DNA from: Polyangia bacterium
GTDB taxonomy: Bacteria > Myxococcota_A > Polyangia > Fen-1088
DNA length: 64,000 nucleotides
Direction: 5' to 3'
NCBI GenBank assembly: GCA_036268875.1
Contig: DATATI010000079.1
Location: 186,001 to 250,000 of the forward strand
Positions 1 to 51,263 of the stretch are shown here, one piece after another. The notes below the pieces were generated by a model, which was given only the letters and a program-made list of their open reading frames with translations, was not told the DNA's origin and made no database searches. Each line of letters starts with the position of its first letter. Position 1 is the stretch's first letter. The translations under genes and the position numbers were made by a program.

Positions 1-792
1 ATCGTCCTTTTCGATCGCGGCAAGGCCCCGGCGACGAAAGCGCAGGAGCACTTCCAGACCGCGATCAAGATCTGGGCGAAGGGTGAGGCCGCGAAGCGCA
101 TCACCGGCAAGGACGTCGAGGCGCGGGCTAACTCGGCGGCGTACGCCTCGGCGGGCGCGGCGTTCTATCTGGCCGAGAAGCAATACGAGGACTTCCTGCG
201 CATCAAGTTCCCCGAGGGCCTGGACTTCCAGACCCCCAGCCAGTACGACAGCGCGCGCAAGCAGGCGGCGACGAAGAAGAAGATGGAAGAGTCGGCGAAG
301 AAGTTCACCGCCTACCTGGATCTGAAGGCGAAAGCCTTGGACAAGGCACGCACTACGTACCTGGACGTCTTCGGGATGAAGCAGGCGCAGTGGACCATCG
401 CCTCGGCGGCGCGGGTCGGGCAGATTTACTCGGACTTTGCCGGTCAGCTTTACACCGCGGAGATCCCCAAGGACCTGAAAGAGATCGATCAGTGGGGCAA
501 CCAGCCGCGCCAGATCTACTGCGATCAGCTGGAAGACAAGGCTGAACCTATCGAGGCCAAGGCGGTCGAGGGCTTCGAGAAGTGTCTGAAGGCGGCCACC
601 GATCAATCCTGGTACAACGAATGGTCGCGCCTGTGTGAGCGAGAGCTGAACCAGATGAAGCCGTCGGATTATCCGTTGGCCTCCGAGGTGAAGCCCGAGG
701 CGGGCTATGTCTCGACCACCATGTCGCCGACGCCGGTCATTTCCGAGCTGAGTGAATCCGCGCCCGTGGCCGCCGCCGCGAGCAGCAAGTAA
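1..792 (+). CDS. gltD: GltD/AgmU-like TPR protein, C-terminal part only
   Basis: An open frame enters from the left edge and ends with TAA at 790-792, so only the last 263 residues are visible. The fragment is helical, rich in Ala, Lys, Glu and Tyr, without Cys pairs or membrane segments until an Ala/Ser/Pro-rich tail. The segment YNEWSRLCERELNQMKP (about residues 204-220 of the fragment) resembles what I recall of large myxobacterial TPR proteins of the GltD/AgmU type. Position is the main argument: the next genes match gltE, gltF and gltG in the order known from M. xanthus. GltD is described there as a large periplasmic TPR protein of the gliding machine. The N-terminal signal and most TPRs lie outside the window. 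A generic TPR protein cannot be excluded. Confidence 0.65.
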   Translation: MVLFDRGKAPATKAQEHFQTAIKIWAKGEAAKRITGKDVEARANSAAYASAGAAFYLAEKQYEDFLRIKFPEGLDFQTPSQYDSARKQAATKKKMEESAKKFTAYLDLKAKALDKARTTYLDVFGMKQAQWTIASAARVGQIYSDFAGQLYTAEIPKDLKEIDQWGNQPRQIYCDQLEDKAEPIEAKAVEGFEKCLKAATDQSWYNEWSRLCERELNQMKPSDYPLASEVKPEAGYVSTTMSPTPVISELSESAPVAAAASSK

Positions 793-804
793 GGAGCCCC
801 CGGA

Positions 805-2553
805 ATGAACACGCGAGTGAAAACGGGCACGGGCACGATGATCAGCGACTCGAAGACCGCGGGGCTTCGCTGGGCGGCGGGATTGACCGCCGGTTTGGGA
901 TTGGCGTTGCAGCTCGTCGGCTGCGGCGGCGCGCCCCCCCCGGCGGCAAAGAGCGGCAGCGATCTCATCGGCGAGAGCAAGCCGGGCGCCGAACAGATCA
1001 TCCCGAAGGAAAAAAAGCGCGACCTGACCGCCGACCAGAAAGCTGACTTCGCCGCGGCCATGGAACGGTATCAATCGGCCAAGAAGTCGGGAGGTCTCAG
1101 CGCTTCGGAGTGCAGCAGCGTGTCGGAAGCCTTCCGCGCGGCCGCCGACGCCAACCCGAACGTGCCCGAGGCCCGCTTTAATCAGGCGGCCGTTCTGCAG
1201 GAGTGCGGTCGTGAGGCGGAGGCCGTACGCATCTGGGAAGGCATGACCGAGGGCAAGAGCAAGTACGGTCCAGCCATGACCAATCTTGGGTACGTGGCCT
1301 GGAAGAACGGCGACATGCCCCGCGCCGAATCGCTGTTCACCAAGGCCATCGACGCCGATCCGCTGCACACCGTGGAGGCGCGCAATAACCTGGCGCAGAT
1401 CCTCCGCGACAAGGCCCGCAAGGCGTCCTCGCCCGAAGAAAAGCGGCAGTACGTGAACCAGGCGGTGAGCAACCTGCGCACGGTGCTGGCGCTGGACAGC
1501 AACAACCTGCAGGCGTTCTCGACGCTGTCGTTCATCTACTTCGATCTCGGCATGCTGGAGATGGCCAAGCTGGTTGGCAATCAGGCCATCCGCAAAGCCG
1601 ATGAGATCGCCACCGGCAAGTTCGAGGAAGAAAGAGCCGAGGACAACGCGGCGGCCAAGGCCAGCAAGAGCGGCAAGAAGGCCAAGCAGAAGGACAAAGA
1701 AAAGAAGGACGAAGAAAACGCCGCTCCTGGGTTGGCCCACGCGGTGGACGTGCGCGAGGTCGGCACCGGCGTGACCCCACAGATGAAGGTGCAGCTGGCG
1801 GTGGTGCACAACACGCTGGGCCTGGTCGAACTGCGCAAGCGCAACATCAGCCCAGCGATCAGCCAGTTCCGGCAGGCGGTGGAGCTGAACCCGGCCTTCA
1901 ACGAAGCGCGCCTGAACCTGGCAGCCCTGTCGCTGAACAACCGGGACTACAAGACCGCCGAGGAGAATTTCCAGGCGGTGCTGCAGGCGCAGCCGAAGAA
2001 CTACGAGGCGATGATCGGCCTTGGCGTCGCGTTGCGCGGCAACAAGAAGATCGACGATGCGGAAGCGCAGTACATCGCCGCGCAGAAGCTGGATCCGCAA
2101 AACCCTTCCAGCTATTTCAATCTGGGTTTGCTGTACCAGGATTACAAAGACGGGCAGAAGCCGGCCCTGCAGAAGGCGCAGGACTATTACCGGCAGTTTC
2201 TGGGCAAGGCCAACGGGTCAACGCCGGACGGCCTGCGCCGCGACGCTGAGAAGCGCATCAAGGACATCGACGAAATTTATGTCGCGCTGGCAGAGGCGGC
2301 CAAGCTGCAGGCCGAAGCGGAAGAGATGCAGCGCAAGGCCGAAGAGCAGCAAAAGCAGATGGAAGAGCAGATGAAGAAGCAAGAGGCCGACGAGGCCACG
2401 GCGGCCGGCAAAACCGGCGCAAAGCAGGCTGGGGCCAAACCGGCCGACGGTGCTGGCGTCACCAGCCCCCCGCCCGCTGACGGCTCGGCGGCACCGGCTG
2501 CCGCCGCCGCCGACGCCACCGCTCCCGGCGGCAAGAAAAAGAAGAAGAAATAG
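805..2553 (+). CDS. gltE: TPR lipoprotein, GltE/AglT-like gliding motility protein
   Basis: 582 aa. ATG 805 is preceded by AAGGAG at 791-796. The N-terminus is a lipoprotein signal with lipobox LVGC, lipid-attachment Cys about residue 40, so the protein should be membrane-anchored and exposed to the periplasm. TPRs run from about residue 75 to 265 and resume about 340-480; between them is a Lys/Glu/Ala-rich stretch (about 270-312). The C-terminus is a Glu/Gln/Lys coiled coil, an Ala/Pro-rich linker and a run of six Lys. It starts 12 bp after the GltD-like gene, so the two are co-transcribed. Length and TPR content fit AglT/GltE, which works with GltG and GltI in M. xanthus gliding. The assignment rests on gene order plus architecture; TPR sequences themselves are not diagnostic. 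Confidence 0.7.
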   Translation: MNTRVKTGTGTMISDSKTAGLRWAAGLTAGLGLALQLVGCGGAPPPAAKSGSDLIGESKPGAEQIIPKEKKRDLTADQKADFAAAMERYQSAKKSGGLSASECSSVSEAFRAAADANPNVPEARFNQAAVLQECGREAEAVRIWEGMTEGKSKYGPAMTNLGYVAWKNGDMPRAESLFTKAIDADPLHTVEARNNLAQILRDKARKASSPEEKRQYVNQAVSNLRTVLALDSNNLQAFSTLSFIYFDLGMLEMAKLVGNQAIRKADEIATGKFEEERAEDNAAAKASKSGKKAKQKDKEKKDEENAAPGLAHAVDVREVGTGVTPQMKVQLAVVHNTLGLVELRKRNISPAISQFRQAVELNPAFNEARLNLAALSLNNRDYKTAEENFQAVLQAQPKNYEAMIGLGVALRGNKKIDDAEAQYIAAQKLDPQNPSSYFNLGLLYQDYKDGQKPALQKAQDYYRQFLGKANGSTPDGLRRDAEKRIKDIDEIYVALAEAAKLQAEAEEMQRKAEEQQKQMEEQMKKQEADEATAAGKTGAKQAGAKPADGAGVTSPPPADGSAAPAAAAADATAPGGKKKKKK

Positions 2554-2655
2554 CCGGCATCCGGCCGCGGCTTTTTGCAAAATATTTGGGAACCCCGGAG
2601 CCAGGCGATTGTCTGAACAAGGCCCGCCGGACTCCCCAGAGCCAGGAGTATCAAC

Positions 2656-2922
2656 ATGAAGCTGCTGACATTGACCGCGTTACTAGGCCTTTTGGGCGCC
2701 TCCGGCACTGCCTTCGCTCAGGCGAAAGGTGGCGACGAAGGTGGCGACGCCAAGTACAAGGCGAAGACCGTCTACGACTTCGAGGACGACATGGTCGAAG
2801 GCGACCTGCAGCGTCCCGACGGCGAGCTGGTTAACTCTTTGAAGAAGACCGAGCACTCGAGCCTGATCGAAATTCGCAAGGACTTCATCCCCGAGATGCT
2901 GAAGTCGCTCGAAGACATTTAG
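2656..2922 (+). CDS. gltF: Small secreted protein in the GltF position
   Basis: 88 aa. ATG 2656 has AGGAG at 2644-2648. Residues 1-22 form a clear Sec signal peptide ending in TAFAQ, leaving about 66 mature residues, acidic and Lys-rich, with the segment YDFEDDMVEGDLQRPDGE near the middle and RKDFIPEMLKSLEDI at the end. There is no Cys and no second membrane segment, so it should be a small soluble periplasmic protein. It sits between the GltE-like and GltG-like genes, exactly where gltF lies in the M. xanthus G1 cluster. I recognise it mainly by position and size; biochemical function is unknown. It is clearly a gene (signal peptide, RBS, operon spacing) although short. Confidence 0.65.
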   Translation: MKLLTLTALLGLLGASGTAFAQAKGGDEGGDAKYKAKTVYDFEDDMVEGDLQRPDGELVNSLKKTEHSSLIEIRKDFIPEMLKSLEDI

Positions 2923-3004
2923 GCCGCGCGCCCCACATACGCCGGCCGCTCTTGCCGCATCTCGAACCGCGACGCTTGCCGAAACCGCAGACAGGAGAGA
3001 TTCA

Positions 3005-5149
3005 ATGGCCGACGTGAAGGTCCCCCTCAAGTTCCAGATCTATAAAGGGGACGCGCTGGTTCGCGAAGAGGTCCTGACCCAGGACGTGATCAAGGTCGGT
3101 AAGCTGCCGTCTTCGCACCTGCGGATCGATGACGAAACTGTCTCGCGTATGCACGCGGTCATCGAGATCACCGGGCCGGACGAGGTGCATATCATCGACC
3201 TCGGTTCGACGCGCGGGACGCTGGTAAACGGCGAACGCGTGACCAAGACCCGTCTGCAATCGGGCGACGAAGTGATGTTCGGCGAGAGCCGCGTGGTGGT
3301 GACGTTCCTGCCCGCCCAGTACGGCGACGCCCCCGCGGCGCCCGCGCCGGTCTCCGCCCGCACGGCACGCATGCCGCCCGGCTACCAGGCGCCACCACCG
3401 CCCACCGGTTTCGCGTCGGCCCCGCCGGCGTATCAGGCGCCGGCGCCTGCGCTCTTCGAAGGCGGCGCCAACCCGGCCGCCGCCGAGGTCGAGGTGCATG
3501 ACGGCTCGCGCGCGATGGAGGTGCAGACCCTCTATCACAACGTCGTCATCGGCACGCGCCACCTGTTCAATCCGGAAGGCAAGAGCACGCACAAGCAGGG
3601 GACGAACTTCCTGCTGGGCGGCGTCGCGCTCGCGGTCATCGCCTTGGCCGTGTTCGTCTACACCGCCATCGACGTCGGCCGCGAAAAGGTCGCTTACGAG
3701 GCGTGGCAGACCGCCGGCAACGAGGCCAAGAACTTCCCCTTTAAGCCGCGCACGGCCGGCAGCGACATTGTCGTGTTCGGCGGTTTGATCGTCGGCATGT
3801 CGCTGGCGTATATGGGTCTCAAACGGCGGGGCAAGACCAGCCCGAACTTCATCATTGGTTCAGACGCCGACGTCGACGCGCCGGTCTCGTCGGATTACGT
3901 ACCGTCGCCGTCGCACCCGCTGGTGGCGGCCAATGGGACCGACTATGTCGTCAACGTCACCCCGCGCATGTCGGGCGAGGTCTACGTCGACAATCAGAGC
4001 TACCCGTTGCAGCAGTTCATTCAACAACGCGGGTCCAGCTTTTCGTTGCCGCCGGGTGGCCGCGCCAAGCTGGATTGCGGCGAGACCACGTTCCTGGTCA
4101 GCGCCACCGCCAAGCCGCGCGCTCTGGAGGTGCCGTTCTTTATTTGGCGCTGGGAAGAGCAGGTCTACACCGTCGGCTCGGTGGTTGCGCTGGGTCTGTT
4201 CCTGCTGATGATCTTCTCGGTCCCGCCGGATCCGAAGTCGCTGTCGCTGGATCTCTTCAACTCGGACAACCGCTTCGTCAAATTCCTGATCAAGCCGCCC
4301 GAGGAAAAAGAGGAAGAAATTCCCGAGTGGCTGAAGAAGAAAGGCCCGGAGGAACAGGGCGGCAAGGGCAAGCGCCACAAGGGCGAAGAAGGCAAGATGG
4401 GCAAGAAGACCTCCAAGAACAAGGAGGGTCTCTACGGTCTCAAGGGTCCGAAGGACAACCCGGATCCGCACCTGGCGAAGAAGCTGGCCGAGGAAGAGGC
4501 GAAGAACGCCGGCATCCTCGGGGTCCTCAAGCAGTCGGAGGGTTCGCACATCGCTTCGATCTTCGGTCGCGACGCGGCGCTGGGCAACGACGCGGACAAC
4601 GTCCTCGGTGGTTTGATCGGCAACCAGATCGGCGAAGCTTACGGCGTCGGCGGTCTGGGTCTGGTCGGCACCGGCTCGGGCGGCGGCGGCACGGGTGAAG
4701 GGACCATCGGTCTTGGCAACCTGGGCACCATCGGCAAGGGTGGTGGCGGCGGCAACGGCTCGGGCTACGGCCGTGGCGCCGGCGGTTTGGGTGGTCGTCG
4801 AGCCAAGGCGCCGGACGTGATCCCCGGTCAGGCCAACGTGCGCGGTTCGCTGGATAAGGAAATCATCCGCCGCATCATTCGCCGCCACATCAACGAGGTG
4901 AAGTTCTGCTACGAGCAGGAGCTGACGAAGAAGCCGGAGCTTGGCGGCCGCATCATGGTGCAGTTCACCATCGCGGCGTCGGGTCAGGTCATCGCGTCGG
5001 TGCTGCAGAACTCGACCATGAGCAACCCGCGCGTCGAAAACTGCACCGTGCAGGCGGTGCGACGCTGGGAGTTCCCGAAGCCGCTCGGTGGCGGTATCGT
5101 CATCGTCTCGTACCCGTTCGTCCTTACCCCCGCCGGCGCCGGAGAGTGA
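3005..5149 (+). CDS. gltG: GltG/PglI-like FHA and AgmX-type inner-membrane protein
   Basis: 714 aa, ATG 3005 with AGGAGA just upstream. Residues about 30-100 are an FHA phosphothreonine-binding domain (core motifs SSHLRIDDETVSRMHA and GSTRGTLVNG). A Pro/Ala linker follows, then three hydrophobic segments at about 200-222, 256-275 and 387-408, a charged Lys/Glu region, a Gly-rich segment (about 545-600), and at about 608-714 the TonB-like AgmX/PglI C-terminal domain (start REIIRRIIRRHINEVKFCYE-like, with one Cys in that motif and one near NCTVQAVRRW). This is the layout of GltG/PglI, which links cytoplasmic motor regulators to the periplasmic machine. The FHA domain implies response to Thr phosphorylation by a Ser/Thr kinase. 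Its stop codon nearly touches the next gene, implying translational coupling. Confidence 0.85.
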   Translation: MADVKVPLKFQIYKGDALVREEVLTQDVIKVGKLPSSHLRIDDETVSRMHAVIEITGPDEVHIIDLGSTRGTLVNGERVTKTRLQSGDEVMFGESRVVVTFLPAQYGDAPAAPAPVSARTARMPPGYQAPPPPTGFASAPPAYQAPAPALFEGGANPAAAEVEVHDGSRAMEVQTLYHNVVIGTRHLFNPEGKSTHKQGTNFLLGGVALAVIALAVFVYTAIDVGREKVAYEAWQTAGNEAKNFPFKPRTAGSDIVVFGGLIVGMSLAYMGLKRRGKTSPNFIIGSDADVDAPVSSDYVPSPSHPLVAANGTDYVVNVTPRMSGEVYVDNQSYPLQQFIQQRGSSFSLPPGGRAKLDCGETTFLVSATAKPRALEVPFFIWRWEEQVYTVGSVVALGLFLLMIFSVPPDPKSLSLDLFNSDNRFVKFLIKPPEEKEEEIPEWLKKKGPEEQGGKGKRHKGEEGKMGKKTSKNKEGLYGLKGPKDNPDPHLAKKLAEEEAKNAGILGVLKQSEGSHIASIFGRDAALGNDADNVLGGLIGNQIGEAYGVGGLGLVGTGSGGGGTGEGTIGLGNLGTIGKGGGGGNGSGYGRGAGGLGGRRAKAPDVIPGQANVRGSLDKEIIRRIIRRHINEVKFCYEQELTKKPELGGRIMVQFTIAASGQVIASVLQNSTMSNPRVENCTVQAVRRWEFPKPLGGGIVIVSYPFVLTPAGAGE

Positions 5150-5154
5150 AGCCA

Positions 5155-6054
5155 ATGTTGAGACTGGGAACGTTCGTCAACGCACGAACCGTGGTTTTCC
5201 TGCTGGGACTGGGACTGCCCGCCTGTGAAGGCTTCGTCTGCAGCCAGGAACGCATCAAGGCCATCGAGTTGGCCAACCGCGGCGCCGAGGAGTTCAAGAA
5301 CAACCTCTACGATTCGTCCGAAAAAGACCTGAAGCAGGCCATCCAGGTCGACCCGTCCTACGAGATCGCCCACTACAACCTGGGCAAGGTCTATCAAAAG
5401 CAGCGCAAGTGGGACAAAGCCGCCGAGTCGTTCGAGGCGGCCGTCCAGCGCGCGCCCAACAACGGCAATTACAGCTATGACCTCGGTGAGGCCTACCTGG
5501 AAGCGAAAGAGGTCGACAAGGCCGAGAAGGCGTTGATCGCGGCGACCAAGGCCGACCCGAAGTTGTTCAAGGCGTGGTGGCGTCTCGGCCTGGTGTACAA
5601 GATGCTCGACCGCCCGAAGGAGGCGGACGATGCCCTTCGACACGCCATCGAGGCCAACACGCGCTTTTCAAAATCATACGTCGCCCTCGGCTATCTGTAC
5701 CTGGACTACGACTTCAACAAAGAGGCGGCGCAGGTGTTTCAAGGCTGCGTCACGGCCAAGGACGACGACGGCGAGTGCCACAACGGGTACGGCCTGGCTT
5801 TGAAGAATCTGAAACAGTACGAGCAAGCCACCGGCGAGTTCAAGAAGGCTATCAATCTTGACCCCGACCTGATCGACGCGCTTTACAACGCGGGGATGGC
5901 CTACGCCGACTGGTACGACGATGCTCACGGCAACGATCAGAAGGAAAACGCCCGCACGTACCTGCAGAAGTTCGTCGCCGCCGGCGGCAAGAACACCGAC
6001 GCCAACTACGTCAAGGCAGCCAACGACAAGCTGTACGCGCTGTCGGGGCCCTAG
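5155..6054 (+). CDS. TPR lipoprotein downstream of gltG
   Basis: 299 aa from ATG 5155. An in-frame GTG at 5146 overlaps the gltG stop, but GGAGAG at 5141-5146 is well spaced for ATG 5155, so I prefer that start. The N-terminus is a lipoprotein signal with lipobox LPAC, Cys about residue 24. The rest is a continuous array of about six TPRs (recurring A-Y-L and W-L-G-L-V patterns), ending with ANDKLYALSGP. It is the last gene before an intrinsic terminator, so the operon gltD-E-F-G-this gene ends here. In M. xanthus the position after gltG is held by gltH, which I recall as a predicted beta-barrel; this protein is not a barrel, so I give no symbol. It resembles GltE/AglT or Tgl/PilF-type TPR lipoproteins. 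Confidence 0.8.
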   Translation: MLRLGTFVNARTVVFLLGLGLPACEGFVCSQERIKAIELANRGAEEFKNNLYDSSEKDLKQAIQVDPSYEIAHYNLGKVYQKQRKWDKAAESFEAAVQRAPNNGNYSYDLGEAYLEAKEVDKAEKALIAATKADPKLFKAWWRLGLVYKMLDRPKEADDALRHAIEANTRFSKSYVALGYLYLDYDFNKEAAQVFQGCVTAKDDDGECHNGYGLALKNLKQYEQATGEFKKAINLDPDLIDALYNAGMAYADWYDDAHGNDQKENARTYLQKFVAAGGKNTDANYVKAANDKLYALSGP

Positions 6055-6107
6055 CGCCGGTCACCCACCTAGGCCGACCATCGCGTTCACTCGCGACTCG
6101 CCCAACC

Positions 6108-6156
6108 AAAGCGACCGCCGCGCGCACCAGCGCCGACGGTCGCTTTGCTGTTTTTT
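6108..6156 (+). terminator. Intrinsic terminator after the gltD-G operon
   Basis: A perfect 10-bp stem, AAAGCGACCG at 6108-6117 pairing with CGGTCGCTTT at 6137-6146, encloses a 19-nt loop. It is followed after four bases by TTTTTT at 6151-6156. It lies 54 bp after the TPR lipoprotein stop, so it should end most transcripts from the gltD side and separate gltI transcription from them. Confidence 0.75.
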
Positions 6157-6170
6157 GCCACGCCCCAGCG

Positions 6171-6179
6171 TGCTATAAA
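6171..6179 (+). promoter_or_regulatory. Candidate extended -10 promoter for gltI
   Basis: TGCTATAAA at 6171-6179 matches the extended -10 form TGnTATAAT at 8 of 9 positions. It stands out in GC-rich DNA and lies just after the terminator and about 120 bp before the gltI start. No good -35 box at 17-bp spacing is visible (TTGCCA at 6155-6160 is only 13 bp away), as expected for an extended -10 promoter. Prediction only. Confidence 0.45.
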
Positions 6180-6301
6180 ACACTCCCGATTTTCTACTCG
6201 GTTTCGCACAGTTAGGCCGGCGAGGGGGGAGGGGCCGCAGAGCTTTGGCGGGTCTTCCCAACGCGTGATCGCCGATCTCGATCGGATCTGGAGGGGACGC
6301 A

Positions 6302-9300
6302 GTGGACCAGCAGTCGAAGCAAGGCTCGGAGCCGGGCAAGGATGCCAAGCGCAAGAAGGACGCAGAGGACGGCGTGCCTTCTGGCGGTAACGGCTCGCAC
6401 AATGGTCAAGACGACTTTCCACCAGAGCTTGCCACCCAGGCTACCGCTGCGCTTGAAGCGGAGAAGCTGTCGGTCGAAAAAGGGATCGATGCGTGGAAGA
6501 AACTCGTCGCTTCCTCGCCGGGGGCGTGGGCCCCGCGCCGCGAGCTGGCCCGCGTTTACCGCAAGGCGGAGCGCTGGAACGCCTTCGTCGAGGTGATGAA
6601 AGACGCCGTCGACAAAGCCAATTGGTCCAAGCCCGAAGACAAGATCCCCGTCCTTTTCGAGATGATCGAGATCTATCGCGACCGGCTGAAGCTGGACGTG
6701 ATGGTGGTGAACGCCTTTAACCAGATCCTGAACATCCAGCCCGCCAATGTCACGGCGTCCGACGCGCTGGCCACGCAGTACGAGAACATGAAACGCTGGC
6801 CGGATCTGATCTCGCTGCTGCGCAAAAAGGCCGGCGTGGTCACCGAACCAGAAGAAAAAGTCGCGCTGCACCTGCGCGTGGCCAATTTGTTTTTGGAGAA
6901 GTTCTCCAATCAGGCCGAGGCGATCAAGTCGTTCGAGGTGATCCTCGATCTCGCGCCGGAGAACCCGGAGGCGCTGTCGTTTCTCAAGCAGATGTACGAG
7001 AAGCGGCGCGACTGGGACAAGCTGGTCGCCATTCATCAGCGTGAGATCGAGAAGATCGCTGACGCTGATTCACGCAAGATGCGGCGGATCGAAGTGGCCA
7101 AGCTGGCCTCCGAGAAGCTGAAAAAGCCGGGAATTTCCATCGATCTGTGGCGGCGCGTGCTGGCCGACGATCCGGACAACGCCGAAGCGCTGGGCGAGCT
7201 GGAAAAACTGTTCGAGCGCGAGAAGGCCTGGGGCGATCTCGGCGACGTCCTGCAAAAGCAGGTCGACGTGCTCAGCGATCCGGCGAAGAAGGCGGCCATC
7301 TTGGTCAAGCTCGGCGTGCTCTACACCGAGAAGGTGCAGGACACCGCGCGCGCTGTTTCCTCCTGGCAAGCGCTGCTCGCGGTCGAGCCAGAGAACCGCC
7401 GCGCCCAGGACGCGCTGAAGAAGCTGTACCTGCAGCAAAAGGACTGGAACGCGCTGGAGGGCTTCTACGCCTCGCAGGGCAAGTGGGACGAGCTGGTGCG
7501 GGTTTTGGAACGGCAGTCGGAGGCCGAGGACGATCCGGCGCGCGTCGGCCTGTGGAACAAGGTCGGCGAGCTTTACCGCGATCGATTGACCAAGCCGGAC
7601 CGCGCGCAGAAGGCCTTCGAAAAGGCGCTGCAGCTGGATAGCCAGAACCTGGTGGCAGCGGAAGCGCTGATTCCGCTTTACCTGAAGACGAAGGACGTTC
7701 GCCATTTGGCGGACGCGCTGATGGTGCAGCTCGGCCACACCTCGAACTTCGACCAGCGGCAAGAGCGCATGCAGGCCCTGCAAGAGCTGCTGGAAGGCGA
7801 AGCAGGCGAGAAAGCCAGTGCTTTGCGCATCACCTTGCAGGCCTTCAAAGAGAATCCCACCGGCGAATGGGCGCTGGAGACATCGCGCCGCCTGGCGGTG
7901 GCATGCAACGGCTGGGCGTTGCTGGTCGAAGCGTACGAGGCGGCGCTGCCGGCAGTGAAGGCCCCGAAGGCGCGGCTGGCGGTGTTGTCGACGCTGGCGG
8001 CGGCGTACGAAAAAGAGCTGGGCAATCCGGAAGCGGCCATCGAGCGCAACCAGACCATTCTGGAGATCGCGGCGAAGGATCCGACGGCGGTCGAGGCGTT
8101 GGAGCGCCTTTACATCGTCACCGGGCGTTTCTCGGATCTGCTGGCGATCTATGACAAGAAGCTGGAGCTGGCCAAGACGGCTGACGAGCAGCTGGAGATC
8201 CGTTTCAAGCTGGCCGGTCTTTACGAGGAAGAGATCCGCCAGCCGGAGAAAGCCATCGAGCTTTACAAGGCGATCTTGAAGCAGTCGCCGACGGAGCTGC
8301 AGGCTTTGAGCGCGCTGGATCGCTTGTACGTCAGCCTGGGCCGCTGGAAAGATCTGTCCGCCACCCTGCTGACCGAGATCGATCTGACCACGGACATGTC
8401 GGCGATCGCCGAGCTGAAGTTCCGGCACGGTGGTCTACTGGAAAAGCACCTCAAGGACGCCGCCGGCGCGGTCTCCGCGTACAAAGAAGCGCTGGCGCTG
8501 GAACCCGGGCACGCCAGCGCCAAGACGGCTCTGCAGGCGTATCTCAGCCATCCGCAACTGCAGATGGCCGCCGTCGACGTGCTGGAGCCGATCTACGAAC
8601 GGTCGGACGATGCCGCCCGTCTGGTCGAAGTTCAGCGCATTCGCCTCAATCAGGAAAAGAACGCCGGCAAGCGCGGCACCCTGTTGCTGCGCATCGGCGG
8701 CCTGGAAGCGAAGCTGGGCAACGCCGAGCAGGCATGGGACGCATACGCCAAAGCGGTCAGCGAGAATCCCGAGCTGACGCCGGCGCGCGAGGCGCTGGAA
8801 AATCTGGCCACCATCCTCGACAACTGGCCCGCCCTGGTGGCGCTGTACGAGGCGGCGCTGGCCAGCAAACAAAAGCTGCCCCCGCCGCTTGAGCGCGAGC
8901 TGTTGCTGGTGGTCGCGGTCGCTTACGACGAGAAGCTCGATCGGTCGGAAAAAGCGGTCGAATACTTCCGGCGCGCGCAGACCATCAAGCCGCAGGACGC
9001 CTCGGCGCTGGTGGCGCTGGAGCGTCTCTACACGCGCACCGAACGCTGGCCCGATCTGATCGACACGCTGAACAAGAAGGCCCAGTTGGTCACCGAAGCG
9101 GCAGAGCGCACGCAGATCCGCACCCGCATCGCCACCGTGTGGGAGGAAATGTTGGGGAACGCCGGCGATGCCATCGCCGCCTGGAACGTCGTCCTCAAAG
9201 ACAACGCTGACAATGTCCACGCCCTCCGCGCGCTGGATCGGCTTTACCTTCAGCGCGGGAGCTTCCGCGAGCTGGCGGACAACCTGCAACGACAGCTGGC

Positions 9301-12300
9301 GCTGAGCACGGAACAGGCCGACACGGTGGCCTTGCTGGGCCGCCTGGGCACGCTGCGCGAACAACGTCTGGGCGACGCCGGCGGTGCGGTGGACATTTAC
9401 CGCCAGATTTTGCAGGTCGAACCCGAGCACCCGCCCACGCTGGCCGCCCTGGAGCGCGTCCTGCCCGATCCGGAGCACGAGCTGACCGTCGCCGAGTTGC
9501 TGGAGCCCATTTACAAGATTCGCGGCGACTGGCCGCGCTTGATCGCGGTCTATGAAATCGAGGCCCGCCATGCCGCGGAGCCCGAGGAGCGGATCGCTCT
9601 TTACAAGCAAATCGCCGACGGATACGAGGTCGGCCTGGACGACCCGGAGCACGCCTACGAGGCGCTGGCCCGGGCGCTGAAGGAGGATCCGCAGAGCGCG
9701 GACATTCAAAGCACCATCGAACGGCTGGCCCGGGCGCTGGGCAAGCTGGACGATCTGGTGGCTCACTACGGGCGCCTGGTAGCGTCGGTCAACGATCCGA
9801 CGCTGCAGAACGCGCTTTATCACAAGATCGCCCGCCTCTGCGAAACCGAGCTGGGGCAAGACCAGCAGGCGGCGGCGGCGTACGCGGCGGCGCTGGAAGT
9901 GTCGCCCCGCGATCTGTCGGCGGCCAACGCGCTGGAGCAGCTTTACCTGCGCCGCGGCGACTACGCGAACCTGGTGGTGCTGCTGCTGCGCAAGGCAGAG
10001 ATCGTCGAGCGGCCCGAACAGAAGAAAGAGCTCTACTACAAGGCGGCTCAGCTTTACGAAGAGGTTCTGGAAGACATGGAGCGGGCGATCGGCGTTTACC
10101 GGCAAACGCTGACCGTCGACGAATCCGACGCCGTCGCGCTGGATCACCTGGAACGGCTGTACCTTCGTCTCGGACGCTGGGAGGACCTCAAGCACGTTTA
10201 CGCCAAGAAGGCGGAGCTGGCACAGACGCCGCAGCAGAAGAAGCAGATGCTGTTCGTGCTGGGTCAGGTTTACGACCGCGAGCTGCGCGATCCGGACCGG
10301 GCGATCGAGACTTACACGTCGATCATGGATTTGGATCCGGACGACTTCGACGCCGCCCAAGCGCTGGATCGCCTTTATCTGCAGACGCAGCGTTGGTATG
10401 ACCTTTTGGCGGTGCTGGAGCGCCAGACCGAGCTGGCGCCGTCGCCGGCCGAGGTGGCGTCGCTGCGCCATCGCATCGGCGAGCTATGGCGCGTGCACCT
10501 GAAAGACCTGACGCGCGCCGTGGAGGCCTATCGCCAGGTCCTGCAAATGGATCCTGGCCACGAGCAGACGCTGCGCGCGCTCGAAGAATTGATGGCCGGC
10601 CGCGAGGAGCCGGTGCTGGCGGCGGCGGTGCTGGAGCCGATCTACGAGAGCGCCGGCGAGTGGGATCGGGTGATCGCCGTCTACGAGGTCATGCAGGCCA
10701 ACAGCGAAGAAGCGCCTCGGCGGGTCGAGCTGCTCTCGCGCATCGCCGAGCTGGAAGAGCGCCGGCTGTCGCACCAGAACGCGGCGTTCGAAGCGTACGG
10801 GCGTGCGCTGCACGTTGATCCCTCGAACCAGGACGTGCTGTCGCACTTGCAACGATTGGCCGGTGAGACCGGACACTGGCCGAAGCTGGCGGCGCTGTAC
10901 TCGTCAGAGCTGGAGAAGATCGAGGACACCCGACGCCAGGTCGACATGCTGCTGCGTCTGGCGGCGGTCTATGAAGAAGAGACCGGTCAGGTCGACGAGG
11001 CCATCGACACCTATCGTCGGGTGGTCGAGGCCGAGCCCGACAACAGGCAGGCGTTGACCTCGCTGGATCGGTTGTACACGCGCGGTCAGCAATGGGAGCA
11101 GCTGGCCGAGGTGGTGCGGCGCGAGATCCGCATCGCAGCCACCGACCAGGACATCGTGGCGCTGACCTTCCGGCTGGCGCAGATCTACGAGCTGGCCCTT
11201 TCCGATCTGCCGAAGGCCATCGAAGCCTACCGCGACATCCTGACGGCTGATCCGGCGCACGGCGAGACGCGCGCGGCCCTGGAACGGATGTTCATGGGCG
11301 GCACGATGCAGTTCGAGATCGCCGAGGTCCTGGAGCCGCTTTATCGCGGTTCTGAAGAGTGGGAAAAGCTGCACCAGATCTACGAGGTTCAGCTGTCGCG
11401 CATCACCGACGTCGAAGAGCGCCAGAGCCTGCTGCGACGCTTGGCGGAGATCGCCGAGCAAAAGCTGGTCGATCAGGTCGCCGCCTTCGAGTGGTGGTCG
11501 CAAGCCGTGCGCGAGAACCCGGCGTCCGAGCAGGCGCTGGACGAATTGCTGCGCCTGGTGCGGTCGACGCATCAGTGGGACGCCTATGTGGCGACGATGT
11601 CGCAAGCGGCGTCGCCGGATCGTCCGCCGCGCGTGCGGCGTGACGTGCTGCTGCGCTTGGCGACGACGTTCGAGAGCGACCTTGGCGATCTGGAACGCGC
11701 CGAGCGGGCCCTCGTGCAGGTGCTGACCGAGAATCACGGTGACGTCGGCGCGCTGGCCTCGCTGGATCGCATCTACGACGCGCAGGGGATGTACGAGAAC
11801 CTGGCCAACGTTCTTAAGCAGCGCATCGCCGTCACCGACGACGGCGACGAGCTGGTGCCGCTGCACCTGCGTCTCGGTCGGGTGTTCGCCGACGCGCTGG
11901 AAGACACGGAAGGGGCCATTGGCAGTTACCTGGCGGTGCTGGAACACCAGCCGCGCGCTCGCGAGGCGCTGGAGGCGCTGGAGCGGCTTTACTTCCGCAC
12001 CGAACGCTGGTCCGAGCTTTACGGCGTCTACGAAAAGCTGGTCAGCGTGGCCGACGACGAAGCGACGGTCGCTTCCTGTTACGCGTGCATGGCCAAGCTG
12101 GCGGCGGAAGCCCTGGGCCAGCGGGCGCGCGCCGTCGAGCTGTGGGGCAAGGTGCTGGAGCTGCGTGGTCCCGACCCGACCGCGCTGGCCGGCCTGGCTG
12201 ACCTGCACGAGGCCGCGCAAGAGTGGCGCGAGCTGACCGAGGTGCTGGAGCGTCAGGTGGCGGCCACGCCCGATCCGGAAGCGAAGATTCCCATCTACAA

Positions 12301-15300
12301 GCGCCTCGGCCGCATCTGGGGCGAAAAGCTCGGGCGCGAGCGCAATTCGCTGGAGAGCTGGCAGAAAGTCCTGGAGCTGGATCCGCAGGACGCGGACGCC
12401 CTGCGCGCCATCGCGGCGAATTACCGTAGCGCCGGCGCCTGGGAAGAATTGTCGCAAGCGTTGCGGCGGCTGATCCAGGTCGGGCAGCTGGGCGGCAGCG
12501 GCATCGAGCCGGGCGAGTTGATGGAGCTTTACGCCCAGCTTGGCGAGCTGGAAGGCGACACCTTGATGCGCACCCAGGACGCCATCGATGCGTGGCGCGA
12601 GGTGCTGGAGATCGACGCGCATGACTTCCGCGCGCTGGCCGCGCTGGAAAAGCTGTTCATGCAGGAGGCGCGCTGGGAAGAGAGCGTCGACATCCTGGAG
12701 CGGCGCGCGCAGGCGCTGCAGAACCCCGCCGAGCAGGTGGACGTCCTCATGCAGGCGGCCAGCTTGTGGGCCGACAAGATCGGCGACGGCGGCTCGGCGG
12801 CGCAGGTGTACGAGCGCGTGCTGCAGCTGGATCCGGCGAACCTGCTGGCGTCGCAGGAGCTGGAGCAGCTTTACCGCCAGCGCAAGAGCTGGGTGAAGCT
12901 GATCGATCTGTTGCTGGCCCGCACGGAGTTCGTCGGCGACGCGCCGGCGCGCATCACTCTGCTGACCCAGGTGGCGGAGATCTACGAGCAGCAGCTCGGC
13001 GATCGCGACAGCGCGTTCGTCACGTTGCAGGCGGCGTTTCGCGAGGATTACTCCAACGACCACGTGGCCAAGGAGCTGGAACGTCTGGCCACGGCGACCG
13101 ACAAGTGGAACGACCTCATCACCGACTACACCCAGGTCGTCCAGGGGATCACCGAGACCAAACAAGCGGCGGATCTATGGGTGAAGATCGCCCGCTGGTA
13201 CGATTCGGCGCTGGGACACGTCGATTACGCCATCGCCTCGGCGCAGCAGGCGTTGCAGCTGGATGCGGTGCACGTCGGCGCGTTGCACGCGTTGGAGGAT
13301 TTCTACCGCAAGCAGAAACGCTGGCCCGATCTGGTGTCGGCGCTGGCCCGCCACGCCGAGGTGGAACCGGAGCCGACCCGCCGCGTGGACATCCTGCTGC
13401 AACTGGCGGACACCTACGAAACCCAGATCGGCGACGCCGCGCAGGCGATGTACGCGTACCAACGCGCGCTGGACGGCGATGAGCGCTGCATCGACGCGAT
13501 CAACGCCCTGGAACGTTTGTACCGGCGCACGCAGGCCTGGGATCGCCTGGTCGACGTGCTGGCCAAGAAGTCGCAGGTGGTCGACGACACCGAACTGGCG
13601 GTGCGGCTGAAGCTGCAAGTCGGCGAGCTGTGGGAGGATCGCCTGGGCGACAACGATCGTGCGGTCGACGCCTATAAAGAGGTGTTGATGGTCGACGCCC
13701 AGAATCCGGCGGCGTTGAAGGCGCTGGATTCGCTGTACCAGAAGACCGGGCGGATGGAGGACTACCTCGAGAACCTCGAGCACCAGCTGGAGATCTCGTC
13801 TCCCGAGCCGGAAGGCGAGCGCGCGGAGATTTACCAGCGCATGGCCACGGTGTGGGAAGAGCAGTTCGGCAAGCCCGATCGCGCCGCCGACGTGCTGGAG
13901 AAGATCCTGCTCATCGACGATCGCAACCAGAAGGCGTACCGCGATCTCGAGCGCATCTACCGGCAAGAGCGCAAGTGGGAAGCGCTGGTCGACACCTACC
14001 GCAAGCACATCCTGGTCACCAACGACACCAACGAGCGCATCGAGATCTATTCGAAGATGGGGCGGGTCTATGAACAGGACCTGCGCGATCTGGAACGCGC
14101 CATCGAGGCCTATAGCGACGTCCTGAACATCGACGCCGACCACGCCGAGGCCCTGTCCGGTCAGGCGCGTTTGTACGAGGAGACCGAGCGCTGGGACCTG
14201 GCGGTCGAGTCGATGCGGAAGCTCATCAGCCGCGCGACTGAACCCAAGCAAAAGGTCGATCTGAACTACCGCCTCGGACGCATCTTCGACGAGCACATGA
14301 AGGATCCGGAGCCCGCCCAGGAATACCTGGTCGAGGCGCTGTCGCTGGATCCGACGCACGTGCCGTCGATGTTGTCGCTGCTGGGCATTTACAAGCGGCG
14401 CGGCGATTGGCTGAAGGCGGCGCAGCTGATGGTGCGGGCCGAGGCCAACACCATCAACCCGCTGGAGAAGACGCGCCTGCTTTACGACGGCGGCAAGATC
14501 TTCCAAGACAAACTAGCCGACGAGGCGCAGGCGGCGACGCTGTTCGCCCGCGTCCTGCAACTGGATCCCGAGCACGTCGAGGCGGCCGAGCCGCTGTCCG
14601 AGATCTACTTTCGGCGCGAGGAGTGGGCGCCGCTGGTGCCGATCCTCGAAATGCTGGCGCGCAAGGCCGATCGCAAGACCAACCGCGAACTGACGCTGCT
14701 TTATCACCGCCTGGCCAAGGCCACCGATCGGCTGGGCGATAACGACAAGGCCATCAAGTACTACAAGCAGTCGTACGATCTCGATTCGACGTACCTGCCG
14801 ACGCTGGTGGATCGGGCGGCGCTGCTGTACCGCCTGGAACACTGGGACGACGCCTTCCGCATCTACCAGACCATCCTGGTTCACCACCGGGACGCGCAGA
14901 AGGACGACGAGATCGTCGACATCTTCTTCCGCCTGGGCCGCATCAAGCTGAAGCTGGGCGAGCGCACCAAAGCGGTGAATATGTTCGAGAAGGCGCTGGA
15001 GATTCAGCCTGGGCACAGGCAAACCTTGGGCGCGCTGACCGACCTTTACACCGACGCCGGTGACTTCGAGGCGGTGATCAAACAGAAGCGCGCGTTGCTG
15101 TCATCGCCAGCCACTGACAGCGACGAGAAGTTCAATTTGTCCGAGCAGATCGCCCAGATCTACAAAGACAAACTGAACAACCCGCAAAAGGCCATCGCCG
15201 CGCACCTGGAAGCGCTGAACCACAAGCCGACCGATCGTCAGCTTTTGCACAACCTCCTCGACCTCTTCAGCGACACCAAGCAGTGGAAGAAGGCGATGGA

Positions 15301-16792
15301 GATCTTGATGAAGCTGGCCGAGCTTGAGGACGGCAAGCTGAAGGCGCGGTACCTGGTGGCGGCCGGCAACATCGCCAACTACGAGCTGCACTCGACCGAC
15401 GACGCGGTCGAGCTTTACAACCAAGCGCTGGATCATGACCCCGACGACCTGAAGGCGTTCGAGCGCATCGACAAGATCATGACTGCCAAGAAGGATTGGC
15501 AGAACCAGGAGCGCAACTACCGCAAGATGATCAAGCGCATCGGGCAGGATCCGCCGGCCGACAAGAAGCCGACGCAGATCGCCTTGTGGCACGCCTTGGG
15601 CGAGATCTATCGCTCGCGCCAGAAGAACTACAAGGCGGCGGTGGCGGCCTTCGAGGTGTGCGTGCAGCTGGACCCGACCGCGATGGCGCGGCACCAGATC
15701 CTGGCCGAGCTTTACCAGCTGTCAGGCCCTGACACGTACGACAAGGCCGTCCAGGAATACCGGCACCTTGTGCGGTCAACGGACGACTTCGGCCAGATGA
15801 CCGTGCACATGAAGACGCTGCGCCGATTGTTTGTGGACATGCGGCAGTACGACCGCGCCTGGTGCGTGACGGCCGCCCTGGTGTTCCTGCGCAAGGCCGA
15901 TCCCGAGGAGCAACAGTTCTTCGAGCAGTACCGGGCCAAGGGCTTTGTGCGGGCCAAGGCCCGCCTGACCGAAGAGCTGTGGGTGAAGAACGTCTATCAC
16001 CCCAATGAAGACCGCTATATCTCGCACGTGTTCGCCACCGTCAGTCAGGGCGTGGCGTCGCTGCGGGCGCGTGAGCACAAAGAGTGGGGGCTCAAGCGCA
16101 AGGACAGGCGCGACGTCACCACCGACCAGCTCCTGTTCAGCAAGGTCTTCAACTATGTCAATCAGGTGCTCGGCGTGCCGCAGCCGGAGCTGTACCTGCG
16201 GCCGGAGATCCCCGGCGAGATCGACATGGCCAACGCGCGCGAGAAGAATCACATGATTCCTTCGTTCGTCATCGGCGCCAGCCTGCTGCAAGGGCGGCCA
16301 GAGAAGGAGCTCGCGTACGTCATCGGCAAGAAGCTGACCATGATGCGGCCGGATCACTTCGTGCGCTGGCCGATGGTGGTGCCGACCACCGCCGAGCTGA
16401 AGGTGGTGTTCCTGGCAGCGCTGCGCCTGGTGCAGCCGAAGTTCGAGGTGCGGGCCGACATGCAGCAGCCGGTGGGCCAGTATGTCGATCACCTGCGCAA
16501 GGTGATCCCGCCGCAGAACATGGAGCAGCTGGGCGTGGTGGTGCAGCGCTTTATTGCCGCCAAGGGCGAGGCCGATCTGCACAAGTGGTCGAACGCGGTG
16601 GACATGACGTCGACGCGCGCCGGTTACCTGATGTGCAACGATCTCGAGGTGGCCGTCCGCCTGGTGCAGTCCGAACCGGTGACCGTCGGCGTGGTCGAAC
16701 CGAAGGAGAAGATCAAGGACCTCATCAACTGGTCCATCTCCGACGAGTACTTCACGCTGCGCGAGCACCTCGGTCTTGTGATTGGTCAATAA
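6302..16792 (+). CDS. gltI: Giant TPR protein, GltI/AgmK-like
   Basis: 3,496 aa in one uninterrupted frame. GTG 6302 follows a purine-rich GGAGGGG at about 6289-6295. There is no signal peptide or membrane segment, so it is probably cytoplasmic. From about residue 45 to 3,100 it is built of units of about 72 residues, each two TPR-like helical hairpins with the pattern W..L...L at the front and A...LDRLY/LERLY at the end; roughly 40 units fit. Four variant units carry LEPIY or LEPLY. Residues about 3,220-3,496 are not TPR and resemble a degenerate M48 metallopeptidase (see findings). Size, repeat content and position match GltI/AgmK, about 3,800 aa in M. xanthus and needed for gliding. The cluster member GltJ is not found downstream; an RNase Y-like gene follows after 18 bp. 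Confidence 0.8.
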   Translation: MDQQSKQGSEPGKDAKRKKDAEDGVPSGGNGSHNGQDDFPPELATQATAALEAEKLSVEKGIDAWKKLVASSPGAWAPRRELARVYRKAERWNAFVEVMKDAVDKANWSKPEDKIPVLFEMIEIYRDRLKLDVMVVNAFNQILNIQPANVTASDALATQYENMKRWPDLISLLRKKAGVVTEPEEKVALHLRVANLFLEKFSNQAEAIKSFEVILDLAPENPEALSFLKQMYEKRRDWDKLVAIHQREIEKIADADSRKMRRIEVAKLASEKLKKPGISIDLWRRVLADDPDNAEALGELEKLFEREKAWGDLGDVLQKQVDVLSDPAKKAAILVKLGVLYTEKVQDTARAVSSWQALLAVEPENRRAQDALKKLYLQQKDWNALEGFYASQGKWDELVRVLERQSEAEDDPARVGLWNKVGELYRDRLTKPDRAQKAFEKALQLDSQNLVAAEALIPLYLKTKDVRHLADALMVQLGHTSNFDQRQERMQALQELLEGEAGEKASALRITLQAFKENPTGEWALETSRRLAVACNGWALLVEAYEAALPAVKAPKARLAVLSTLAAAYEKELGNPEAAIERNQTILEIAAKDPTAVEALERLYIVTGRFSDLLAIYDKKLELAKTADEQLEIRFKLAGLYEEEIRQPEKAIELYKAILKQSPTELQALSALDRLYVSLGRWKDLSATLLTEIDLTTDMSAIAELKFRHGGLLEKHLKDAAGAVSAYKEALALEPGHASAKTALQAYLSHPQLQMAAVDVLEPIYERSDDAARLVEVQRIRLNQEKNAGKRGTLLLRIGGLEAKLGNAEQAWDAYAKAVSENPELTPAREALENLATILDNWPALVALYEAALASKQKLPPPLERELLLVVAVAYDEKLDRSEKAVEYFRRAQTIKPQDASALVALERLYTRTERWPDLIDTLNKKAQLVTEAAERTQIRTRIATVWEEMLGNAGDAIAAWNVVLKDNADNVHALRALDRLYLQRGSFRELADNLQRQLALSTEQADTVALLGRLGTLREQRLGDAGGAVDIYRQILQVEPEHPPTLAALERVLPDPEHELTVAELLEPIYKIRGDWPRLIAVYEIEARHAAEPEERIALYKQIADGYEVGLDDPEHAYEALARALKEDPQSADIQSTIERLARALGKLDDLVAHYGRLVASVNDPTLQNALYHKIARLCETELGQDQQAAAAYAAALEVSPRDLSAANALEQLYLRRGDYANLVVLLLRKAEIVERPEQKKELYYKAAQLYEEVLEDMERAIGVYRQTLTVDESDAVALDHLERLYLRLGRWEDLKHVYAKKAELAQTPQQKKQMLFVLGQVYDRELRDPDRAIETYTSIMDLDPDDFDAAQALDRLYLQTQRWYDLLAVLERQTELAPSPAEVASLRHRIGELWRVHLKDLTRAVEAYRQVLQMDPGHEQTLRALEELMAGREEPVLAAAVLEPIYESAGEWDRVIAVYEVMQANSEEAPRRVELLSRIAELEERRLSHQNAAFEAYGRALHVDPSNQDVLSHLQRLAGETGHWPKLAALYSSELEKIEDTRRQVDMLLRLAAVYEEETGQVDEAIDTYRRVVEAEPDNRQALTSLDRLYTRGQQWEQLAEVVRREIRIAATDQDIVALTFRLAQIYELALSDLPKAIEAYRDILTADPAHGETRAALERMFMGGTMQFEIAEVLEPLYRGSEEWEKLHQIYEVQLSRITDVEERQSLLRRLAEIAEQKLVDQVAAFEWWSQAVRENPASEQALDELLRLVRSTHQWDAYVATMSQAASPDRPPRVRRDVLLRLATTFESDLGDLERAERALVQVLTENHGDVGALASLDRIYDAQGMYENLANVLKQRIAVTDDGDELVPLHLRLGRVFADALEDTEGAIGSYLAVLEHQPRAREALEALERLYFRTERWSELYGVYEKLVSVADDEATVASCYACMAKLAAEALGQRARAVELWGKVLELRGPDPTALAGLADLHEAAQEWRELTEVLERQVAATPDPEAKIPIYKRLGRIWGEKLGRERNSLESWQKVLELDPQDADALRAIAANYRSAGAWEELSQALRRLIQVGQLGGSGIEPGELMELYAQLGELEGDTLMRTQDAIDAWREVLEIDAHDFRALAALEKLFMQEARWEESVDILERRAQALQNPAEQVDVLMQAASLWADKIGDGGSAAQVYERVLQLDPANLLASQELEQLYRQRKSWVKLIDLLLARTEFVGDAPARITLLTQVAEIYEQQLGDRDSAFVTLQAAFREDYSNDHVAKELERLATATDKWNDLITDYTQVVQGITETKQAADLWVKIARWYDSALGHVDYAIASAQQALQLDAVHVGALHALEDFYRKQKRWPDLVSALARHAEVEPEPTRRVDILLQLADTYETQIGDAAQAMYAYQRALDGDERCIDAINALERLYRRTQAWDRLVDVLAKKSQVVDDTELAVRLKLQVGELWEDRLGDNDRAVDAYKEVLMVDAQNPAALKALDSLYQKTGRMEDYLENLEHQLEISSPEPEGERAEIYQRMATVWEEQFGKPDRAADVLEKILLIDDRNQKAYRDLERIYRQERKWEALVDTYRKHILVTNDTNERIEIYSKMGRVYEQDLRDLERAIEAYSDVLNIDADHAEALSGQARLYEETERWDLAVESMRKLISRATEPKQKVDLNYRLGRIFDEHMKDPEPAQEYLVEALSLDPTHVPSMLSLLGIYKRRGDWLKAAQLMVRAEANTINPLEKTRLLYDGGKIFQDKLADEAQAATLFARVLQLDPEHVEAAEPLSEIYFRREEWAPLVPILEMLARKADRKTNRELTLLYHRLAKATDRLGDNDKAIKYYKQSYDLDSTYLPTLVDRAALLYRLEHWDDAFRIYQTILVHHRDAQKDDEIVDIFFRLGRIKLKLGERTKAVNMFEKALEIQPGHRQTLGALTDLYTDAGDFEAVIKQKRALLSSPATDSDEKFNLSEQIAQIYKDKLNNPQKAIAAHLEALNHKPTDRQLLHNLLDLFSDTKQWKKAMEILMKLAELEDGKLKARYLVAAGNIANYELHSTDDAVELYNQALDHDPDDLKAFERIDKIMTAKKDWQNQERNYRKMIKRIGQDPPADKKPTQIALWHALGEIYRSRQKNYKAAVAAFEVCVQLDPTAMARHQILAELYQLSGPDTYDKAVQEYRHLVRSTDDFGQMTVHMKTLRRLFVDMRQYDRAWCVTAALVFLRKADPEEQQFFEQYRAKGFVRAKARLTEELWVKNVYHPNEDRYISHVFATVSQGVASLRAREHKEWGLKRKDRRDVTTDQLLFSKVFNYVNQVLGVPQPELYLRPEIPGEIDMANAREKNHMIPSFVIGASLLQGRPEKELAYVIGKKLTMMRPDHFVRWPMVVPTTAELKVVFLAALRLVQPKFEVRADMQQPVGQYVDHLRKVIPPQNMEQLGVVVQRFIAAKGEADLHKWSNAVDMTSTRAGYLMCNDLEVAVRLVQSEPVTVGVVEPKEKIKDLINWSISDEYFTLREHLGLVIGQ

Positions 16793-18409: not shown

Positions 18410-18652
18410 ATGAACGTCGTCATTCCGCCGCTGTTTTTCTATGCCCTGGGCGCGATGCTGATCACCTTCGGCGCGTTGCGGGCGGTCACCTTTGGCCGGC
18501 GCAGGCCCGAGCGCGAACTGAATGAACAAGACAACGCCGCCCGCGCCGGCGAGCGCCGCCGTCATCTGCGCTTTGGCGTCATCTGGGTGCTGATGGGGTT
18601 GTTCTTGATCGCCTCGACGGCGGGCGTGCTCAAGATGCGCTCGCCGTTTTAG
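18410..18652 (+). CDS. Small two-helix membrane protein
   Basis: 80 aa, ATG 18410, 27 bp after the RNase Y-like stop. Two hydrophobic helices (about residues 5-26 and 55-73) flank a strongly charged loop rich in Arg and Glu (RRRPERELNEQDNAARAGERRR). This is typical of a small inner-membrane protein. I do not recognise a family. No strong ribosome-binding site is visible (GGCGAG at about 18397). Its last 23 bp overlap the convergently transcribed exporter gene. The two-helix pattern with a polar loop makes it a likely real gene rather than a chance frame. Confidence 0.6.
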   Translation: MNVVIPPLFFYALGAMLITFGALRAVTFGRRRPERELNEQDNAARAGERRRHLRFGVIWVLMGLFLIASTAGVLKMRSPF

Positions 18653-50783: not shown

Positions 50784-51263
50784 ATGAGCGGCCCCGATGT
50801 CATGTTTCCCGAGGAGCAGCAGCAGATCTCAACGGTCTGCGCCCGGCTGCAGCGGGATGCCAACGCCAAGGCGGTTCTGCTGATTGGGCGCGATGGCCAG
50901 CCCATCGCCGAAGCGGGTGACGTCGACGAGCTGGACGTGACGTCGCTGTCGTCGCTGACGGCCGGCAACGTCGCCGCCACCGGCGGCATCTCGAAGATCC
51001 TGCGCGAGAAGGACTTTACCAGCCAGTTTCACGAGGGCGAAAAGACCCACGTGCACATCACGCTGGTGGGCGGGCGGGCCATCCTGGTCGTCCTGTTCGA
51101 CGAGCGATCGTCGCTGGGGCTGGTTCGCCTGCGGGTAAGAAAGTCGTCCGACGAGATGGCCCGGCTGTTCGAGCAGGTGGCCAAGAAAGCGGCGGCCAAA
51201 AGCCAGCCCTCCATCCTCACCGAGATCACCGACAGCGACATCGACAACCTCTTCAATGACTGA
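50784..51263 (+). CDS. mglB: MglB, GTPase-activating protein of the Roadblock/LC7 fold
   Basis: 159 aa from ATG 50784 with AAGGAG at about 50774-50779; the long frame upstream overlaps recR and is spurious. The Roadblock/LC7 pattern is clear: [42 protein letters not shown], and [21 protein letters not shown] recall M. xanthus MglB also at 159 aa. MglB dimers accelerate GTP hydrolysis by MglA and mark the lagging pole, so the front-rear axis of gliding depends on it. The C-terminal tail [21 protein letters not shown] is the region known in M. xanthus to contact MglA. It lies 20 bp before mglA, in the usual order. Confidence 0.95.

Follow-up and report, generated by a model that had tools for sequence, protein, structure and literature searches.

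A conserved glt gene cluster of a Polyangia bacterium with an unlinked gltJ and a TPR lipoprotein gene beside gltI

Gene content and order of the glt cluster

The DNA analysed here, referred to as the window, is a stretch of 64,000 nt on contig C79 of the genome of a Polyangia bacterium (6.15 Mb in 95 contigs, 96.8% complete). At its beginning lie, in order on the plus strand, the 3' end of gltD, gltE, gltF, gltG, a TPR lipoprotein gene, gltI and an RNase Y-like gene (Table 1). A preliminary description of this DNA had proposed a colinear gltD-E-F-G...gltI string; the ORFs, their order and their coordinates hold, and GltE, CglF (GltF) and GltG were assigned by profile. As to cluster content the description was only partly right: gltD is present in the window as a 3' end cut by the window edge, and the cluster also includes gltC directly upstream. 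The gltD frame runs on continuously from a start at about C79:183256, and gltC lies directly 5' of it, outside the window (window coordinates about -4574 to -2883).

Table 1. Features of the glt locus and of the mglBA locus in the window
Feature	Position	Strand	Evidence and remarks
gltD, 3' end	1..792	+	frame runs on from upstream; 263-aa ORF; whole protein about 1178 aa
gltE, TPR lipoprotein, 582 aa	805..2553	+	NF033758 gliding_GltE, 135 bits, E 3.5e-39, cut-off 225
gltF (CglF), 88-aa secreted protein	2656..2922	+	NF033764 gliding_CglF, 87.3 bits, whole model, cut-off 90
gltG	3005..5149	+	NF033760 gliding_GltG, 425 bits, E 5e-127, cut-off 650; NF033768, 109.7 bits; PF00498
TPR lipoprotein, 302 aa, unnamed	5146..6054	+	leave-one-family-out profile, 279 bits vs 65 for GltE
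gltI, 3496-aa TPR protein	6302..16792	+	synteny and identity to relatives
GltI C-terminal domain, 331 aa	15797..16789	+	alignments, predicted structure
RNase Y-like gene	16811..18382	+	TIGR03319, 383.7 bits, cut-off 454.35
80-aa putative membrane protein	18410..18652	+	follows the RNase Y-like gene throughout the window's family
mglB, GAP of MglA	50784..51263	+	M. xanthus MglB PDB 6h5b chain B, E 1.9e-49; start codon inferred
mglA, polarity GTPase, 195 aa	51284..51871	+	MglA PDB 6hjh and 6h17, E about 5e-107, residues 1-194

The gltD product shows TPR/YbgF-like profile matches and is 44-82% identical to the product of the same-position gene in relatives from its own family and from family f3. 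For GltE, CglF and GltG, the best-matching model in the profile search was in each case the glt model. GltG does combine an FHA domain with an AgmX/PglI C-terminal domain, as had been described, both being matched by profile; the protein also has three predicted TM segments and a G-rich linker, and its C-terminus is TonB-like. The scores of GltC (298 bits to NF033756, curated cut-off 450), of GltE, CglF and GltG (Table 1) and of the GltJ protein described below (116 against 450) are all lower than the NCBIfam equivalog cut-offs, which are an annotation convention. Since none of 190 genomes of the phylum passed the GltG cut-off in a profile search, the shortfall probably reflects where the cut-off was placed and not a defect of the locus. 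With neither the GltJ nor the GltG profile did any genome in the phylum sets searched score above the respective cut-off.

The giant TPR protein noted earlier after the TPR lipoprotein is GltI, which shares 27-77% identity over about 3500 aa with the product of the same-position gene in relatives and in which no signal peptide was seen. Alignments showed that its C-terminal part of about 330 aa is conserved, and searches of this part against Pfam and PDB sequences returned nothing. When the AF2 model of the domain (pLDDT 94) was searched with Foldseek, M48 proteases (ZMPSTE24, BepA) came up as weak matches, and the HExxH motif is absent; the model suggests that the domain is possibly an inactive M48-like fold. 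Related GltI-type C-termini were also observed in other proteins of the genome, encoded on contigs C14, C89 and C31.

The intergenic gaps in the cluster range from -4 to 138 bp, apart from the 247 bp preceding gltI, where this gene could be under control of its own; no promoter signal exceeding chance emerged from a scan. The RNase Y-like gene next to gltI, which had been noticed before, starts 18 bp after it. This gene follows gltI directly throughout the window's family, where a gene for an 80-aa putative membrane protein without a Pfam match comes next, and in other families the neighbours are unrelated and the 80-aa gene does not follow. The RNase Y-like gene was considered as a machine part and rejected, because its position after gltI is limited to the window's family; it is kept as a neighbour.

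The same gene string was found in regions representing at least 10 families, and given this recurrence the agreement with the gene order of M. xanthus goes far beyond coincidence. Like the window, the M. xanthus G1 cluster (gltD-E-F-G-H-[agmV]-I-J, MXAN_4870-4862) has gltD, gltE, gltF, gltG and gltI ordered on one strand, and the architectures match among the proteins compared. The two differ in that gltC heads the window cluster whereas it belongs to G2 in M. xanthus, in that the window cluster has no gltH-family gene, and in that gltJ is unlinked, at purA, and an RNase Y-like gene stands after gltI. The layout typical of the class is gltC-gltD-gltE-gltF-gltG-[TPR lipoprotein]-gltI. It is also seen, with no gltJ beside gltI, in Sorangium cellulosum So0157-2 and So ceGT47 (the gene finder called gltF only in the latter), which is more divergent from the window (GltI 38% identity) and has a Ser/Thr kinase gene after gltI in both of its complete genomes. 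We concluded that the locus, an ordinary and well-conserved one with gltJ unlinked, is orthologous to the G1 (glt) cluster of M. xanthus.

Location of gltJ and of other machine parts

It had been pointed out in the preliminary description that a GltJ-like gene does not follow gltI, and this is correct: there is none in the window, and the sole match to the GltJ profile on C79 is the tail of GltG. The implication that GltJ is lacking altogether did not survive a genome-wide search, which located an unlinked GltJ-type protein of 584 aa on contig C83 (C83:86402-88156); a missing GltJ was therefore rejected. The protein consists of a zinc ribbon, a GYF domain, one TM helix and a PglI-type C-terminus, and matches NF033761 with 115.8 bits in three stretches. 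Its zinc ribbon matches PDB 7zok (E 3.8e-9) and its GYF domain matches PDB 7z3c (E 1.5e-7). Both entries carry the name adventurous gliding motility protein X and are solved domains of M. xanthus AgmX. The second of the two GltJ-type proteins in the genome, a paralogue with the same zinc ribbon-GYF-TM-PglI order, is encoded at C74:83153-84925 (L019), beside a Ser/Thr kinase gene.

Homologues of GltJ were found in 16 of the 18 searched genomes of the window's family, always on a different contig from gltI, most of these genomes being fragmented. One of them, G002, consists of 20 contigs and carries gltI and gltJ on separate contigs of 1.8 and 0.8 Mb. Directly upstream of gltJ lies purA (adenylosuccinate synthase) in the genome studied here and in G002, G003, G006 and G016; the same linkage occurs in G027, which belongs to another family, making two families in all. 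A motif scan for a zinc-ribbon GltJ-like gene downstream of gltI-type C-termini found none at 73 loci, which include a few gltI paralogues and some short flanks. In G030, the sole genome of its class in the sample, a GltJ-like gene follows gltI directly, as in M. xanthus. Thus the absence of gltJ beside gltI does not mark a variant, as had been supposed: the unlinked gene sits stably at purA, a gltJ-free neighbourhood is usual in the class, and the gltI-gltJ linkage, which M. xanthus shares with G030, is a local arrangement that is not known to be required for function.

The genome shares with the M. xanthus Agl-Glt system, besides a GltJ-type protein, an AglRQS-like motor and mglBA. One AglRQS-like motor set, at C74:47476-49245, comprises one TolQ-type and two TolR-type genes, and a second, at C21:65796-68275 (L260), is a row of four genes, two of TolQ type and two of TolR type. 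The mglB-mglA pair sits in the window at a distance of 34 kb from gltI, preceded by dnaX-, ybaB- and recR-like genes; in G002 no linkage of mglBA to gltI was found within about 55 kb downstream. Pairs of OMP_myx_plus barrels, which are candidates for GltA/GltB, are encoded on C74 and C88.

No gene for a CglE-family barrel (CglE is taken here to be GltH) was found in the glt cluster of the window, nor was one detected in several genera within the window's family that retain the glt cluster. The only CglE-family gene found in the genome, at C88:31510-31992, lies in a third core cluster that forms one string (C88:31500-43300, L270) and encodes two OMP_myx_plus barrels, a 215-aa protein, GltC-, GltD- and GltE-like proteins, a 148-aa protein, a GltG-like protein, a putative lipoprotein and the CglE-family protein. 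A second Glt-type core with GltC, GltD and GltG paralogues was observed on C20 (L020 1425-18391). The genes directly after it encode a barrel (weak prediction), a polysaccharide export protein of the Wza type, a protein of the O-antigen ligase type and a glycosyltransferase. The C20 cluster might transport polymer in the manner of Nfs.

The TPR lipoprotein between gltG and gltI

The protein between gltG and gltI had been described as a TPR lipoprotein, not a barrel, in the gltH position. It is indeed a TPR lipoprotein, but to speak of a gltH position is misleading, since it belongs to a conserved family of its own. A member of this family directly precedes gltI in 23 of 23 regions, that is, in all those examined that have the glt cluster or the lipoprotein-gltI pair, and these regions span several classes and no fewer than 10 families. 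When profiles were built leaving one family out, the protein in this slot ranked first in every region, with 146-337 bits against 45-124 for the next-best TPR protein, in most cases GltE. A stretch that follows the lipid Cys is conserved among the slot lipoproteins, with R before N-x-G.

In G024, the lipoprotein-gltI pair stands without gltC-gltG (loci L087 and L086), homologues of which are on other contigs of that genome; the pair on its own suggests that the lipoprotein is tied to GltI. One more GltI-type locus, that of G021, is not directly preceded by a lipoprotein gene, and the other genes of the cluster are missing there too. Three other identities were considered and discarded. The lipoprotein is not a replacement of GltH, as it forms a conserved orthologous family and several of the genomes that have it also carry a CglE-family gene; it is neither Tgl nor PilW, to which it scored 45 bits (cut-off 225) and 98.6 bits (cut-off 154), respectively; and it is not a copy of GltE, because the leave-one-family-out profiles separate the two in all regions.

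In M. xanthus, the interval between gltH and gltI holds the annotated ORFs agmV (MXAN_4864/65), which were hit in transposon screens for motility and were discarded by Luciano et al. 2011 as likely pseudogenes (PMC3169522). AgmV (MXAN_4865) is also among the listed proteins of outer-membrane vesicles (PMC4158809). The TPR lipoprotein gene likewise lies between gltG and gltI and is likened to agmV by this position; the position, screen phenotype and vesicle location of agmV would fit a real lipoprotein. We tentatively suggest, while holding it somewhat short of probable, that the TPR lipoprotein may be an unrecognised core Glt subunit throughout the Myxococcota and M. xanthus agmV its orthologue. 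If this is true, machines that contain GltI would have in it a membrane-anchored TPR partner. Across the phylum the lipoprotein gene occupies this slot, and it is absent from the accepted GltA-K set, which points to a gap in the parts list of the M. xanthus gliding machine, the best studied among myxobacteria, and the conserved lipoprotein beside gltI is the part of the locus most worth following.

Proposed function and alternative readings

While homology, gene order and the presence of the parts were seen directly, assembly, force transmission and gliding are drawn here by homology with M. xanthus (PMC3169522, PMC3858216). On this basis, the cluster would encode the transducer of an Agl-Glt envelope machine, which probably serves gliding or surface transport of a directly related kind. 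The inner membrane would house a proton-driven AglRQS-like motor acting on GltG, the TonB-like arm of which would reach into the periplasm; GltC, GltD, GltE and GltF would pass the force on to outer-membrane barrels. In M. xanthus, GltJ acts from the cytoplasm alongside MglA-GTP. In the machine proposed here, the TPR scaffold GltI together with GltJ, through its cytoplasmic zinc ribbon and GYF domain, may couple the complex to MglA-GTP. Gliding is favoured because GltF, GltI, a GltG of the FHA type, GltJ and MglA/MglB are all present. It counts against this reading that the only CglE-family (probably GltH) gene sits in a paralogous cluster, that several genera of the family keep the glt cluster with no such gene detected, and that the glt scores fall below the cut-offs.

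The Agl-Nfs machine of M. xanthus moves spore-coat polymer, and a Glt-type machine might similarly serve directed transport of a surface polymer or another envelope task without gliding. Homologues of the gltC-D-E-G core occur in non-gliding bacteria as well (PMC3169522), which speaks against gliding, and Glt paralogues can be repurposed (PMC3858216). The genome itself holds two paralogous core clusters, one of them beside polysaccharide export and glycosyltransferase genes, and the CglE-family barrel is not in the window cluster. A likeness to nfsA-H is found in the paralogous clusters: those on C88 and C20 have the paralogous core and are, like nfsA-H, without gltI, and that on C20 also shares the polysaccharide-export setting. 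Nfs has no paralogues of GltI, GltJ and GltK (PMC3858216). What sets the window cluster apart from nfsA-H and from the two paralogous clusters is that it contains GltI and a GltG with an FHA domain; it also holds the sole match to the CglF profile; moreover, the genome encodes a GltJ-type protein and M. xanthus-like MglA/MglB, which are parts tied to gliding in M. xanthus. We consider a non-gliding output unlikely, although it is the more serious of the two alternatives weighed here, and gliding or a related surface transport is preferred.

The preliminary description had also raised a variant or ancestral machine. A stepwise origin of the system, with gltH and gltK as late additions, was proposed by Luciano et al. 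2011 (PMC3169522), and in this light the word ancestral is partly fair; a variant is unsupported. A reduced machine truly without GltJ, in which the RNase Y-like protein or the TPR lipoprotein would be the substitute, could be read from gltI having no adjoining gltJ and the RNase Y-like gene following so closely, but is most improbable given the complete GltJ architectures on C83 and C74, the GltJ homologues in most of the searched genomes of the family, the restriction of the RNase Y-like neighbour to that family, and the joint occurrence of the TPR lipoprotein and a GltJ-like gene in one cluster of G030. With this, the false lead of a gltJ-free gliding variant is removed.
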